Positions 21,965 through 26,896 of a stretch of DNA of 64,000 nucleotides are shown in pieces. The notes under the pieces are model-generated. The model was not told where the DNA came from. It was given only the letters and a program-made list of their open reading frames with translations, and did no database searches. Made by a program: the position numbers and the translations under genes. Source of the stretch: Gemmatimonadaceae bacterium (GTDB lineage Bacteria; Gemmatimonadota; Gemmatimonadetes; Gemmatimonadales; Gemmatimonadaceae); NCBI GenBank assembly GCA_036496605.1, contig DASXKV010000056.1, forward strand, positions 1 to 64,000. The letters run 5' to 3'. Positions within the stretch are counted from its first letter, which is position 1. Each line of letters begins with the position of its first letter.

Positions 21965-22996
21965 GTGGAGACTCGCGCGAATCTCGTCGTACAGACTTCC
22001 TTTCTCGGCGACACCGTCCTCACGACGCCGTTGCTTGCGTATCTCGGCGAGCGCGCGCCGGTCGACGTCGTCGTGACTCCCGCGTCAGCTCCGCTCCTGG
22101 CGAACAATCCGTCGATCCGTGACCTGATCGTCTACGACAAACGGGATCGCGATCGAGGCCTCGGCGGATTCGTTAGGCTTGCGCGGTGGCTACGTGCAAA
22201 TCGTTATGCGCGCGCATACCTCACGCAGGGTTCGATGCGAAGCGCGGCACTGGTCCTGGCCGCGCGCATTCACGAGCGCGTCGGGTTCGCGACTTCCGCC
22301 GGGAAGCGGCTCTATACGAGGCGCGTGCCCTACATCGAGAACGAGCATCACGCCATGCGCCTCCTGCGATTGGCGACTGGCGACGCGAAGCTCACGCGAA
22401 CCGATACTCAGCCACGACTCTATCCGGGAGGCGATGAAAGACGCGCCGTCGACGCGTTTCTGACCCAGCGTGGATGGACTGGCGAGCCGTTGATCGCGCT
22501 CGCGCCGGGAAGCGTCTGGGCGACGAAGCGCTGGCCACACTATGCGGAGCTTTCAGGCGAAATCGGCGGCCGTCTTGCAATTGTCGGATCCGCCGCGGAT
22601 CGCGAGCTCGCGGCCGAGATCACTCGTGCAGCGGGACCGCGCGCGATCGATTGCACAGGGAGCTTGTCGCTGCTCGGGTCGGCGGAGCTGATCGGGCGAG
22701 CGCGCGTGCTCGTCACAAACGATTCATCTCCTCTCCACCTCGCGTCGGCCATGGGCACGCCGACGGTGGCGATCTTTGGCCCTACGGTCCCCGAGTTTGG
22801 CTTTGGACCGCTCGCGCCGCGATCGATAGCGCTCGGCATCACTACGCTGGCGTGCCGTCCGTGCGATCGCCACGGCCCGCAGCGCTGCCCACTGGGCCAT
22901 TGGCGCTGCATGCGCGAGATTACGCCGCGCCGCGTCGCGGACGCGGTGCAGGAGCTCGCGGCGTCCTCGCCTCCTTTTCATCCGTCCCCCCGTTGA
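21965..22996 (+). CDS. glycosyltransferase family 9 (heptosyltransferase-like)
   Basis: Likely ADP-heptose:LPS heptosyltransferase (WaaF/RfaF-like), adding heptose to the lipopolysaccharide inner core on the cytoplasmic side. The N-terminus METRANLVVQTSFLGDTVLT is the GT9 start, with the conserved G-D. The sugar-nucleotide site region has APGSVWATKRWP. The C-terminal signature is TNDSSPLHLASAMGTPTVAIFGPT. A Cys-rich segment near the end (CRPCDRHGPQRCPLGHWRC) is common in this family. GTG is the start. It supports a diderm envelope. It ends 2 nt before the ROK kinase start, so transcription is shared. Confidence 0.85.
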   Translation: METRANLVVQTSFLGDTVLTTPLLAYLGERAPVDVVVTPASAPLLANNPSIRDLIVYDKRDRDRGLGGFVRLARWLRANRYARAYLTQGSMRSAALVLAARIHERVGFATSAGKRLYTRRVPYIENEHHAMRLLRLATGDAKLTRTDTQPRLYPGGDERRAVDAFLTQRGWTGEPLIALAPGSVWATKRWPHYAELSGEIGGRLAIVGSAADRELAAEITRAAGPRAIDCTGSLSLLGSAELIGRARVLVTNDSSPLHLASAMGTPTVAIFGPTVPEFGFGPLAPRSIALGITTLACRPCDRHGPQRCPLGHWRCMREITPRRVADAVQELAASSPPFHPSPR

Positions 22997-22998
22997 GC

Positions 22999-24009
22999 AT
23001 GGTGACCAAGAAACGACATCGCTACATCGTCGGCGTCGATCTCGGCGGAACGAACATCGTCGCGGGCGCGATGTTGGAGGACGGGTCGGAGCATTATGGC
23101 ATGCGCTCGATCGCGACGTCGCCCGAACTGGGCGCCGAGGGCGTCGCCGATCGCATCGTTGGGCTCGTGGAGGGCGTGATTCTCGACACGATCGCGCAGA
23201 CCGACGCACATCGCCGGGACTTCATGGGCGTCGGCGTGGGCGCGCCAGGTCCTCTCGATCGCGAGCGCGGCGTCGTCATCGTCGCGCCGAATCTCGGCTG
23301 GCGTGATTTCCCGTTACTCGATCACATCACGAAGCATCTCGGCATGCCGGCCACGCTCGACAACGACGCGAATTGCGCGACGGTCGGCGAGTGGTGGCAG
23401 GGCGCGGCGAAGGGCGGACGCAACGTGGTGGGAATGACGATCGGCACCGGCATCGGCGGTGGATTGATCATCGACGGCCAGCTCTTTCACGGCTCGTCGG
23501 ACGTCGCCGGTGAAATTGGCCACACGACCATCGATCTGAACGGACGCCATTGCAAGTGCGGCAACTACGGCTGTCTCGAGGCGTACGCGTCCGGGCCGGC
23601 GATCGCGACGCGCGCGCGCGAGATTCTCGTGCGCGAAGAGACGGCATCGCTGCTGCCGAGTCTCGTCGGCGGCCAACTCGAGCGGGTGACGGCGCAAACG
23701 GTCTATGATGCCGCGAAGCAGGGCGACGCGGTCGCCAACGAGATCGTACGCGACACGGCGCGCTACCTCGGCGCGGGCGTTGCGAACTTGCTCAACACGT
23801 TCAACGCCGACGTCGTCGTCATCGCCGGCGGCGTGACGCAGGCGGGCGATGCGTTGTTCGTGCCGCTGCAAGCCGAGGTGCGTCGGCGCGCGTTCAGGCC
23901 CGCGGTCGAGGCGGCACGCATTGTCCCTGGCGCGCTTCCCGGAACGGCAGGCGTCGTCGGCGCGGTCGCGACGTTTCGCATGGGGAAAGGCCTCGGCCTC
24001 GAGGCTTGA
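22999..24009 (+). CDS. ROK-family sugar kinase (glucokinase-like)
   Basis: ATP-dependent hexose kinase of the ROK family. The phosphate loop is VGVDLGGTN (about 11-19). The sugar-binding motif EIGHTTID is followed by the ROK zinc site CKCGNYGCLEAYASG. A second ATP motif, VVVIAGGV, lies near residue 273. The length of 336 aa fits glucokinases of this type. The ATG at 22999 comes 2 nt after the previous stop. The frame is open 175 codons further upstream, but that portion is a shadow of the heptosyltransferase. Substrate (glucose, N-acetylglucosamine or other) cannot be fixed from sequence. Confidence 0.9.
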   Translation: MVTKKRHRYIVGVDLGGTNIVAGAMLEDGSEHYGMRSIATSPELGAEGVADRIVGLVEGVILDTIAQTDAHRRDFMGVGVGAPGPLDRERGVVIVAPNLGWRDFPLLDHITKHLGMPATLDNDANCATVGEWWQGAAKGGRNVVGMTIGTGIGGGLIIDGQLFHGSSDVAGEIGHTTIDLNGRHCKCGNYGCLEAYASGPAIATRAREILVREETASLLPSLVGGQLERVTAQTVYDAAKQGDAVANEIVRDTARYLGAGVANLLNTFNADVVVIAGGVTQAGDALFVPLQAEVRRRAFRPAVEAARIVPGALPGTAGVVGAVATFRMGKGLGLEA

Positions 24010-24030: not shown

Positions 24031-25032
24031 ATGACGTCATCCAAACGCCGCATCGGCGTGATCGGCACTTTCGTCTGGGACGTGATCTACGGCAGAGACG
24101 CTCGCGCCGTACCCGTCGAGGAATGGGGCGGCATCAGCTACGCCATGGCCGGCCTGGATGCCGCGCTTCCCGACGACTGGGAGATTGTGCCCCTCATCAA
24201 GGTGGGCGACGACCTCGCTGCGCGAGCGCAGGCCTTTTTCCGGGCGTTGCGTCACGCCGCGCCCGATGCGGCACTGGTCGAGGTCGCGGCGCCGAATCAA
24301 CGCGTCGAGCTGCGCTACCACACGGAGGATCGGCGTAGCGAATTTCTCAGCGGTGGTGTGCCGGGATGGTCGTGGGCCGGGCTCAAGCCATTGCTCGATC
24401 TCGCGCGTGTCGAGGCGCTCTACGTGAATTTCCTGAGCGGGTGGGAGCTGGATCTCCAGACGATGCTCCTGCTTCGCCAGTACTTTCGGGGCCCCATCTA
24501 CTGTGACCTGCACATGAAGGTCATGGCCGTCCAGCCGAATGGGCTGCGCACACCGGAGCCGCTGCCTAACGTGGCCGACTGGTGCAGCTGCTTCGACCTT
24601 CTACAGGTCAACGAGGACGAGATGGCGATGATGGCGCCGGATCCGATGGCGCTATCCGCGACGGCGCTCGCGGCGGGCGTTTCGTGTCTCGTCGTGACGC
24701 TCGCGAAGCGAGGCGCGGTGTATTTTGCGGCGCCGGGTTTCGACGCGATCGGCGACCTCCCGCCGCGCGGCGGATTGTCGACGTCGCCGCGGGGCGGTAC
24801 GGGACCGCTCGGAGCAGTGCGAACCGCGCTCGTACCCGGGGCGGCGACCCGCACCGGGGATCCCACAGGTTGCGGGGACGTGTGGGGTGCAACGTATTTT
24901 TCTCGCCTCATTGCGGGCGACCGACTGATCGACGCGCTCACCGCCGCGCATCGTGCGGCGGCGCGCAATGTCGAGCACCGGGGAGCAACCGGACTCGCAA
25001 ACTTTCTTCGCGGAGAGCTGAGCCTCAGGTGA
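24031..25032 (+). CDS. PfkB/ribokinase-family carbohydrate kinase
   Basis: Cytoplasmic kinase of the ribokinase superfamily. Visible features are the N-terminal GVIGTFVWDVIYG and the C-terminal PfkB signature GDPTGCGDVWGATYFSRL (catalytic Asp in GCGD, about residue 285). The usual anion-hole DTxGAGD has become DPTGCGD, still functional-looking. An insertion rich in Gly/Pro/Arg at about 245-280 is not in the core fold. The length of 333 aa is normal. Substrate unknown; sugars or nucleosides are possible. The last codons overlap the GTG of the STAS-HATPase gene (GTGA), implying translational coupling. Confidence 0.82.
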   Translation: MTSSKRRIGVIGTFVWDVIYGRDARAVPVEEWGGISYAMAGLDAALPDDWEIVPLIKVGDDLAARAQAFFRALRHAAPDAALVEVAAPNQRVELRYHTEDRRSEFLSGGVPGWSWAGLKPLLDLARVEALYVNFLSGWELDLQTMLLLRQYFRGPIYCDLHMKVMAVQPNGLRTPEPLPNVADWCSCFDLLQVNEDEMAMMAPDPMALSATALAAGVSCLVVTLAKRGAVYFAAPGFDAIGDLPPRGGLSTSPRGGTGPLGAVRTALVPGAATRTGDPTGCGDVWGATYFSRLIAGDRLIDALTAAHRAAARNVEHRGATGLANFLRGELSLR

Positions 25033-25946
25033 CGACCGTCGTCAACGTACCACCCTCGCTGGACGATCATTCGTTCGACGAAGTCCTGCGCCAGTTGACG
25101 ACTGTTTCGAGTGACACGAAAGTGCTCCTCGATGCGCGTCATGTTCGCTGGGCATCGCCGTTCGGTCTCACCGCATTGCTCACGCTCGCGCAGACGCGTG
25201 CCGAGATGCCGGCTCTCGCTGTTCCAGAGCTCGAGGAGACGGCGTCATACTGGGCCCGCGCCGGATTCTTTCGCCACGCGGAAGAGTTGTACGAGCTTCA
25301 CGGCACCTATCCGAAGCGCGCAGGCGCCGCCGACAGCAATGTGCTGCTCGAGATCACCAGTGTCGCGAAGAGCGAGGATGTACACGATGTCGTCGGTCGG
25401 ATACAACAAAAAGCGCAATTGATGCTTCGTGAGCTCAATCTCGATGCGAAGGCGACCGTCGGCTTCGCGATGACCCTGTCGGAGATCTGTCAGAACATCG
25501 TCGAACACGCAGGACGCGGCGGCTGGGTAATGGTGCAGACTTATCGATGGACGAAGCGGCTCGGCCGACGCGTCGTCGTCATCGCCGTCGCCGACGCGGG
25601 CGTCGGCTTTCGCCAGTCTCTCGAGAGCGCGCCGGGCAAGGAGCGGGGGGATCGATGGGACGATGGGGCAGCGCTGGAGGACGCCGTCATTCGTGGTGTA
25701 AGCCGGTTTCGTGATCCCGGTCGCGGACAAGGCCTCGCCGGCGTGCGACGCTATCTCGGTCGCTGGGACGGCAAGCTTGCCGTTCGCAGCGGTACGGCTC
25801 GCATCGCTATAGTTCCGAACTGGGACGACGACGTAGCACTGGCCAAGCACTTGCCTCCCTTCCCCGGCGCCCAGGTTCAGGTCACGATTCCAGAGCGCGC
25901 ACCAGTGCAATCCTCGCCGCACGCTTCTGCCCGAACCAAGCGATGA
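25029..25946 (+). CDS. STAS-like domain fused to a GHKL (HATPase) anti-sigma-type domain
   Basis: Regulatory protein, 305 aa. Residues 1-110 look like a STAS domain (VLLDARHVRWASPFGLTALL, as in SpoIIAA-type antagonists). Residues about 130-285 form a histidine-kinase-like ATPase. Its N-box is LSEICQNIVEHAG, its G1 box VADAGVGF and its G2-type GRGQGLAGVRRYL. In RsbW/SpoIIAB systems the ATPase and the STAS protein are separate and oppose each other; here they are one chain. GTG start at 25029 overlaps the PfkB stop. The stop overlaps the next ATG. Probable partner switch in signal transduction (inference from domains). Confidence 0.8.
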   Translation: MTTVVNVPPSLDDHSFDEVLRQLTTVSSDTKVLLDARHVRWASPFGLTALLTLAQTRAEMPALAVPELEETASYWARAGFFRHAEELYELHGTYPKRAGAADSNVLLEITSVAKSEDVHDVVGRIQQKAQLMLRELNLDAKATVGFAMTLSEICQNIVEHAGRGGWVMVQTYRWTKRLGRRVVVIAVADAGVGFRQSLESAPGKERGDRWDDGAALEDAVIRGVSRFRDPGRGQGLAGVRRYLGRWDGKLAVRSGTARIAIVPNWDDDVALAKHLPPFPGAQVQVTIPERAPVQSSPHASARTKR

Positions 25947-26500
25947 TGAATCACATCGATCTCAGCTCGGTGTTACGACAGACCGTTGCGTGCGAGTTGT
26001 ACTCGAATCTCGTGACGCGACCGACGGGAGCCGCCGTCCGCGATCAGATCGAGCGATTGCTCGTCGACGTGCGCGACCGCACACTGACGGTGATCGACTT
26101 CTCGCAGGTCTCGATGATCGATTTTTCCTGCGCCGACGAGGTGATCGCCAAGCTGCTGCTGCGTTACGAAGCCGACAATCCGCCACGCGAGGCGTACTTT
26201 CTCTTTCGCGGCGTGACCGAAGAGCACTGGGAGGCAATCGAGGCGGTGCTCGAACGACGAGGGCTCGCGCTGGTGCTCGAGCAGGCGGATGGGATTCACG
26301 TCGTCGGCACGCTGAGCGCCGATGAGCGTCGCGTCTGGGAGATGGCGCAGAAGATCGGCCGCGCGGCGTCGACGGAGTTGGCCGCGGCGCTGGACGCCCC
26401 GGCCCACGAGGTCGCGCAGGCGCTCGAGCAGCTCCGGCGACGCCGACTCGTTATGCGCGTCGGCGACGACTACGTGGTGGTGGGAGCGCATCGTGGCTGA
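25943..26500 (+). CDS. STAS-like (DUF4325-type) protein with C-terminal winged-helix-like domain
   Basis: 185 aa. The first 100 residues resemble the DUF4325 STAS-like family (LTVIDFSQVSMIDFSCADEV, with a Ser/Cys at the phosphorylation-loop position). Residues about 125-180 look like a small winged helix (RVWEMAQKIGRAAS, then LAAALDAPAHEVAQAL). The ATG overlaps the STAS-HATPase stop (ATGATGA), and the next gene begins inside its end. A second STAS-type chain next to an ATPase fits a switch whose output could be DNA binding; that output is inferred. Confidence 0.72.
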   Translation: MMNHIDLSSVLRQTVACELYSNLVTRPTGAAVRDQIERLLVDVRDRTLTVIDFSQVSMIDFSCADEVIAKLLLRYEADNPPREAYFLFRGVTEEHWEAIEAVLERRGLALVLEQADGIHVVGTLSADERRVWEMAQKIGRAASTELAAALDAPAHEVAQALEQLRRRRLVMRVGDDYVVVGAHRG

Positions 26501-26801
26501 CGATACCCTCAATCGGCCCCTCCGCGTCGCGCGGCTCATGGCGACGAGTGCGCGGGATGCGGAGCGCGGACCGATGGTGTTCATGCATCCCGAGAATGCG
26601 CGTGAGCGTTTGCTCATCGACGGTGAGCTCGTGTGGGTGTACGGGCCGCGCCGGCACGAATTGGCGACCGTCCGCTTCGACGAGACGGTGCCCTTCGGCG
26701 ACGTCGTGCTGCGGGACGTGGTCGGCGCGTCACCTTCCGAGATCGTACGCGTCATCAAACCAGACCTCGACAGCCGGGGGCGTCGCGGTGCCCTGGCGTA
26801 A
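26493..26801 (+). CDS. small predicted beta protein, third member of the STAS module (102 aa)
   Basis: GTG start overlapping the previous stop by 8 nt. The segment LIDGELVWVYGPRRHELATV, followed by PFGDVVLRDVVG, reads like one half of a double-psi beta-barrel of the aspartate-decarboxylase/molybdopterin-binding C-terminal type. It is short and no cofactor motif is obvious, so this is a pattern impression only. There is no signal peptide. The tail RGRRGALA is basic. Tight coupling to the two STAS genes suggests a shared pathway, perhaps as the target of the switch. Confidence 0.6.
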   Translation: MADDTLNRPLRVARLMATSARDAERGPMVFMHPENARERLLIDGELVWVYGPRRHELATVRFDETVPFGDVVLRDVVGASPSEIVRVIKPDLDSRGRRGALA

Positions 26802-26803
26802 GA

Positions 26804-26889
26804 GGGGCTAGGGGTTGGGGACTAGGGGCTAGAGCAGTGCCTGATGATAGCCGCTTGGTCCCAAGCCCTAGCCCCTAGCCCCTAGCCCC
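26804..26889. repeat. paired G-quadruplex / hairpin element of iterated GGGGCTA units
   Basis: Left half: GGGG at 26804, 26811, 26817 and 26825 with 2-4 nt spacers (CTA, TT, ACTA), a perfect plus-strand quadruplex motif. Right half: CCC/CCCC at 26860, 26866, 26872, 26879 and 26886 with CTAG-type spacers, the minus-strand version. The halves can also pair into a long imperfect hairpin around a 30-nt loop. It lies between the small beta-protein gene and the PLP-enzyme gene and is the best example of this element class here. Confidence 0.65.
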
Positions 26890-26896
26890 TTCCAAC

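Follow-up and report, generated by a model that had tools for sequence, protein, structure and literature searches.

The locus examined here raises the question of what three overlapping genes, placed directly behind two sugar kinase genes, do together, and whether they form a partner switch acting on DNA. For switches built from GHKL kinases and STAS proteins, the role known in most cases is the control of sigma factors. The window, i.e., the whole stretch of 64,000 nucleotides that was analysed, belongs to contig C56; the genome measures 5.97 Mb, and its closest relatives in the collection of named genomes are Gemmatimonadota MAGs. A first-pass annotation, made from the sequence alone, described three genes overlapping start to stop after sugar kinases and a heptosyltransferase. 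The genes concerned are the following.

21965-22996, + strand: GT9 heptosyltransferase-family gene (PF01075)
23000-24009, + strand: ROK-family sugar kinase, start approximate (PF00480; TIGR00744 just below cut-off)
24031-25032, + strand: PfkB-family sugar kinase of the same operon, its stop overlapping the P1 start (PF00294)
25029-25946, + strand: P1, pseudo-STAS domain and GHKL ATPase, 305 aa (PF13581 and PF02518 above cut-off; AlphaFold model, AF2, pLDDT 91; Foldseek)
25946-26500, + strand: P2, DUF4325-type STAS domain and winged helix, 184 aa, or 185 if the start is at 25943 (AF2 pLDDT 95; DUF4325 in 5/34 family members)
26493-26801, + strand: P3, stand-alone double-psi beta-barrel, 102 aa, family-specific (PF01568, 2.3e-7)

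P1 extends from a GTG at 25029 to a TGA ending at 25946, and with its GTGA it overlaps the end of the preceding PfkB gene, stop codon included, by 4 nt. P2 begins at an ATG at 25943 or 25946, overlapping P1 by 1-4 nt, and ends with a TGA at 26500, while P3 runs from a GTG at 26493 to a TAA at 26801 and overlaps P2 by 8 nt. In close pairs, the dN/dS values (0.20 for P1, 0.15-0.34 for P2, and 0.09-0.30 for P3) indicate purifying selection on all three, which are thus genes and not chance frames. The overlapping layout is therefore confirmed, as is the place after the sugar kinases and the heptosyltransferase, and the sugar-kinase context is conserved throughout the class. Between P3 and the gene of a Cys/Met-metabolism enzyme, positions 26802-26892 contain an imperfect inverted repeat of CCCCTAG-type units (GGGGCTAGGGG...CCCTAGCCCCTAGCCCC), with a predicted fold of -63.5 kcal/mol (z -5.2). 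A similar element lies elsewhere in the same genome (L161:1950-2060), and the exact 15-mer of the repeat was not found in the loci of other genomes (among 204 loci); the element would seem to be a hairpin repeat that is dispersed in this genome and specific to it.

Within the class (Gemmatimonadota), P1 and P2 are each present in 141 of the 149 sampled genomes (~95%), almost always as one match. Either gene is found alone only in contig-end or fragmentary cases, and families f6 and f9 have neither. The two are same-strand neighbours in all 68 class loci examined. Upstream of the pair lie PfkB in 61/65 loci (on the same strand), ROK in 58/64, LepA in 59/63, and GT9 in 31/63, and the Cys/Met-metabolism enzyme follows the pair in 43/63. 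In family f8, the gap between P1 and P2 is larger, ~1.4 kb in one locus (L145, genome G010) and ~0.55 kb in another (L146, G029). The class-internal part of the P1 tree was used alone, the branches of the plasmid relatives being very long; its branching broadly tracks the families, which is consistent with vertical inheritance of P1 within the class. Stable synteny alone, without a functional link, might explain why the pair keeps its place after the kinases.

P3 shows a different distribution. It is present in 30/30 genomes of the window's own family; outside, only weak matches are found (1 in 119 other genomes), within frames of 687-756 aa. The conservation of the trio, which the first-pass annotation had proposed as a check, thus extends to one family only. 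The trio is ruled out as a functional unit, and P1 and P2, not the trio, are the conserved core of the module. By its distribution, P3 is taken to be an add-on of one family. Its sequence matches PF01568 (Molydop_binding) over 56 residues (31.2 bits against a cut-off of 26.8; E 2.3e-7), all 24 aligned relatives match this family at E 0.01 or better, and the nearest solved structures are TMAO/DMSO reductases. The 102-aa beta protein had been read as a possible half double-psi barrel; the double-psi barrel stands, and the half barrel is rejected, given the Pfam match and a length that suffices for one whole barrel.

P1 scores just above the cut-off of PF13581 (HATPase_c_2; 27.7 bits against 27.4) and also above that of PF02518 (HATPase_c). 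The STAS part is more divergent, with STAS_2 matched by 4 of 33 relatives and STAS by one, and the P1 profile matches the structure of a stage II sporulation STAS protein at E 0.002. Foldseek with the P1 model retrieved the STAS protein TM1442 (prob 1.00) as well as SpoIIAB/RsbW. Pfam, AF2, and Foldseek thus agree with the proposed fusion of a STAS domain to a GHKL ATPase, and all 108 P1 homologues have the predicted N, G1, and G2 boxes without variation in their key residues.

25155-25166, + strand: P1 loop S43-P44-F45-G46, at the site of Asp-Ser-Ser-Gly in SpoIIAA (P44 and G46 in 108/108)
25476-25508, + strand: P1 N box L150-H160, LSEICQNIVEH (E152, N156, and H160 invariant in 108/108)
25593-25607, + strand: P1 G1 box DAGVG (D189, G191, and G193 invariant in 108/108)
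25722-25736, + strand: P1 G2 box RGQGL (R232, G233, and G235 invariant in 108/108)

Glu152 occupies the position of the catalytic base in proteins of the SpoIIAB type. The position matching the phosphoserine of SpoIIAA is F in the window and Y, N, F, or A in nearly all homologues; a serine is found in only 3/108, the other 105 being non-Ser.

For P2, the AF2 model has the strand-helix alternation of STAS domains, followed by a winged helix, and the P2 family matches DUF4325 at 3e-6 at best. The window protein itself reaches only 12 bits against PF14213 (DUF4325; cut-off 23), and its Nitrospirota relatives (G149 and G151) exceed this cut-off. AF2, Foldseek, and the matches of these relatives bear out the earlier assignment of the second gene to a DUF4325-type STAS protein with a winged-helix-like end, and structure prediction upholds the domain calls in both P1 and P2.

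26120-26140, + strand: P2 motif D59-F-S61-C-A-D-E65, with the candidate phosphoserine Ser61 at 26126-26128 (D59, S61, and E65 invariant in 105/105)
26318-26479, + strand: P2 C-terminal winged helix-turn-helix, residues 125-178 (AF2 secondary structure; Foldseek)

In the model, one helix spans residues 60-75, which places Ser61 at the start of helix 2. Presumably, this is the position of Ser58 in SpoIIAA; in both P1 and P2, the equivalent of Ser58 was assigned from the motif and from where helix 2 begins in the model rather than by superposition. Among the 105 homologues, D59, E65, R25, G28, and R32 are as invariant as Ser61. The pattern is that of an intact kinase domain whose fused STAS domain lacks the serine, together with a STAS partner that has it.

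The pair also occurs in Desulfobacterota and Nitrospirota, and in a divergent form on plasmids of four more phyla. P2 was found in 15 of 247 Desulfobacterota genomes, which include all 8 strong carriers of P1, although the two genes need not adjoin (hypergeometric 2e-11, uncorrected for phylogeny). The other 7 of the 15 (six genomes and G326) have no P1 orthologue, so that P2 may not need this P1, or may work with a kinase that escaped recognition. At least four of these six genomes exhibit a GalT-like gene directly after P2. In one such clade (L094, L077, L079, and L080), a TrmFO-like gene, P2, and the GalT-like gene follow in this order, a sugar link with genes named by eye from sequence; a GT9-like gene, named likewise, lies ~4 kb downstream in L094.

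On plasmids, tblastn and profile searches identified P1-P2 pairs in Nostoc, Janibacter, Cytobacillus, Pseudomonas, Alicyclobacillus, and Sphingobium, with P1 first and 6-130 nt between the genes. The position of Ser61 is a serine in all six P2 relatives, and the winged helix of most of the class is also found on the Nostoc, Janibacter, Cytobacillus, and Sphingobium plasmids. ThiF-type adenylyltransferase genes lie near the Cytobacillus, Sphingobium, and Janibacter pairs. The plasmid pairs L173, L174, and L176, close to ThiF/E1-like genes together with DUF6527 and DarT/macro genes or a multiubiquitin gene, lie near ubiquitin-like conflict loci.

A GHKL gene lies directly upstream of a DUF4325 gene, or is fused to it, in the window, in the 68 class loci, in the six plasmid pairs, and in Nitrospirota loci. 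A GHKL ORF adjoins the DUF4325 gene in about two thirds of the loci of a Nitrospirota-centred sample, and in most of the high-scoring DUF4325 loci sampled it is found beside or fused to it. In L191, Pfam recognises HTH, HATPase_c_2, and DUF4325 in one chain of 388 aa, and by sequence L196, L198, and L199 encode similar HTH-GHKL-DUF4325 chains. Such single-chain fusions provide good evidence for GHKL and DUF4325 functioning as partners. These four chains (~365-388 aa), from Nitrospirota-related genomes, have an alanine in place of the DUF4325 serine. Several DUF4325 branches, one-chain fusions included, have Ala or Pro at this position, so a phosphoserine mechanism need not hold throughout the cassette. 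In a full-text literature search, no paper was about DUF4325 by its title or abstract, and the mentions seen were incidental, e.g., in a gene table. Searches for the combination of STAS, winged helix, and HATPase, for Gemmatimonas STAS proteins, and for STAS-like with ATP-binding proteins returned nothing relevant. The P1/P2 switch thus appears to be previously unstudied.

Taken together, these features make a partner switch formed by P1 and P2 plausible, and we lean towards a two-protein GHKL-kinase/STAS switch in which P1 binds P2 and phosphorylates Ser61, with an output mainly through protein contacts. P1 would be an ATP-binding enzyme, having all catalytic residues, and its own STAS domain is probably a built-in pseudo-substrate or docking domain, since the phosphorylatable serine is lost. 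The STAS domain of P2 would be the partner, with Ser61 as the likely site of phosphorylation (or gating). Following the precedent of SpoIIAB/RsbW, phosphorylation of Ser61 by bound P1 would change the binding partners of P2. The output that is conserved would probably be a contact between proteins, one that may involve the sugar kinases of the operon; to this, the winged helix may add a lineage-variable DNA-binding or docking function. The binding between P1 and P2, the phosphorylation, the input, the output, and the role of P3 are what we infer. In a bolder version, P1 would set the phosphorylation of P2, and P2 would gate both the ROK and the PfkB kinase by protein contacts, as a class-wide core regulator and a metabolic, not sigma-factor, partner switch; we regard this as rather improbable.

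The output had been suggested to be DNA binding: P1 would phosphorylate the STAS domain of P2 and thereby switch the binding of the winged helix to operator DNA, such as that of its own sugar-kinase operon. The winged helix is predicted with high confidence, resembles those of MarR and Z-alpha proteins (Foldseek), and recurs in most of the class and on four of the plasmids, and HTH domains are fused to GHKL-DUF4325 in single chains. Nevertheless, this part of P2 evolves rapidly. When the window is compared with L032, its nearest relative, the STAS part gives a dN of 0.038 and the winged helix one of 0.312, and two further pairs concur (overall, 0.31-0.52 in the winged helix versus 0.04-0.18 in the STAS part, i.e., about 3-8 times). 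Its median net charge is 0, and the recognition helix is not conserved, varying widely among homologues. Moreover, two genomes of one genus of the window's own family (g5) have a P2 of ~120 aa reduced to the STAS domain, and a clade of the sister family (G004, G027, G030, G081, G142, G144, and G048) has a P2 of ~140 aa from which helices 1-2 of the winged helix are deleted; both lineages retain P1, Ser61, and an intact operon, and the g5 genomes also keep P3. Judged from these losses, the winged helix is a dispensable part of P2. DNA binding may occur in many lineages, but the rapid evolution of the winged helix, its near-neutral charge, and its loss or degradation in two families make DNA binding unlikely as the conserved or ancestral essential output. 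The claim of a DNA-binding output is therefore unsupported in that role, and the toggling of P2 on an operator is, in our estimate, unlikely.

The SpoIIAB/SpoIIAA-type folds of the pair also suggest a second anti-sigma/anti-anti-sigma pathway into the Rsb-type general stress response of the genome. The same genome has a separate locus (L161, G000:C8:23626-26107) encoding STAS, HATPase_c_2, and SpoIIE phosphatase proteins, i.e., an RsbV-RsbW-RsbU pattern, so P1/P2 is an additional module. This type of locus is widespread in the class and is missing together with P1/P2 in f6 and f9: the SpoIIE-phosphatase locus was found in 0/6 class genomes without P1/P2 versus 51/55 with it (Fisher p 4e-6, a value confounded by shared ancestry). 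However, the co-loss is confined to two families and thus amounts to one or two events, and P1/P2 persist without a strong SpoIIE-type phosphatase in G025, G028, G031, and G052. The one strong SpoIIE-type phosphatase of the window's genome lies in the RsbV-RsbW-like locus. A link between P1/P2 and the phosphatase was accordingly rejected, the co-loss being phylogenetically confounded and the phosphatase part of that separate locus. In addition, no sigma factor or phosphatase gene was recognised in the P1/P2 neighbourhoods seen (for sigma factors, those of the class and of Desulfobacterota). We consider this second pathway highly doubtful. Alternatively, Ser61 may be structural and take part in no phosphotransfer, P1 being an ATP-driven conformational partner of DUF4325 in a nucleotide-gated assembly. 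The Ala or Pro found in some DUF4325 proteins paired with or fused to GHKL would agree with this, whereas the serine of all 105 subfamily members and all six plasmid relatives, together with the invariant Glu152 at the SpoIIAB-type catalytic base position, argues for phosphotransfer and makes a purely structural Ser61 decidedly unlikely.

If the metabolic reading holds, a kinase that carries an inactive version of its own substrate domain would drive the metabolic partner switch of a whole class. What sets P1/P2 apart is a dead STAS domain fused to the kinase, a place behind two sugar kinases, and a presence, usually in one copy, in ~95% of the sampled class genomes, against the background of GHKL/STAS switches known mainly for the control of sigma factors. 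The function of one GHKL-DUF4325 member would give a function to a cassette found in several phyla, on plasmids, and in one-chain proteins, and the lineages without the winged helix make the question of a DNA-binding output directly testable.

With regard to known systems, P3 shares its domain match with the C-terminal domain (PF01568) of DMSO-reductase-type enzymes; unlike these domains, it stands alone (102 aa), without fusion to an enzyme, and adjoins a signalling pair. The N-terminal part of the PADLOC DrmA profile (positions 107-249 of 1750, ~140 positions) matches P1 at 5e-10, and this DISARM profile comprises GHKL and then DUF4325 segments in the order of P1-P2, as seen through the Pseudomonas pair. 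Unlike DISARM loci, the P1/P2 neighbourhood has housekeeping genes and neither a helicase nor other DISARM genes, and with a partial profile match only, membership in DISARM/DrmA is ruled out. P1/P2 share the pairing with GHKL neighbours seen in the DUF4325 family (PF14213), and the Nitrospirota relatives belong to it by score. Compared with typical members, the window P2 falls below the cut-off, carries a winged helix, and has DFSCADE in place of SFADE; compared with other GHKL-DUF4325 pairs, P1/P2 are core-genome, single-copy, and apparently vertically inherited. With RsbW/RsbV and SpoIIAB/SpoIIAA, P1 shares the GHKL kinase fold and the N, G1, and G2 boxes, and P2 is likewise a STAS partner that has a serine where helix 2 begins. 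Unlike RsbW and SpoIIAB, P1 carries its own serine-less STAS domain, and unlike RsbV and SpoIIAA, P2 is of the DUF4325 type with a winged helix. The operon, in contrast to those of the Rsb and SpoII systems, encodes neither a sigma factor nor a PP2C phosphatase, in line with the earlier remark that the locus matches no known Rsb or SpoII operon. We therefore file P1/P2 as a variant of the GHKL/STAS switch outside the Rsb/SpoII systems; in our best reading, it is a partner switch of a GHKL kinase and a STAS protein that departs from the canonical type, and it represents, within the core genome, a GHKL-DUF4325 cassette that is widespread but has had no functional study.
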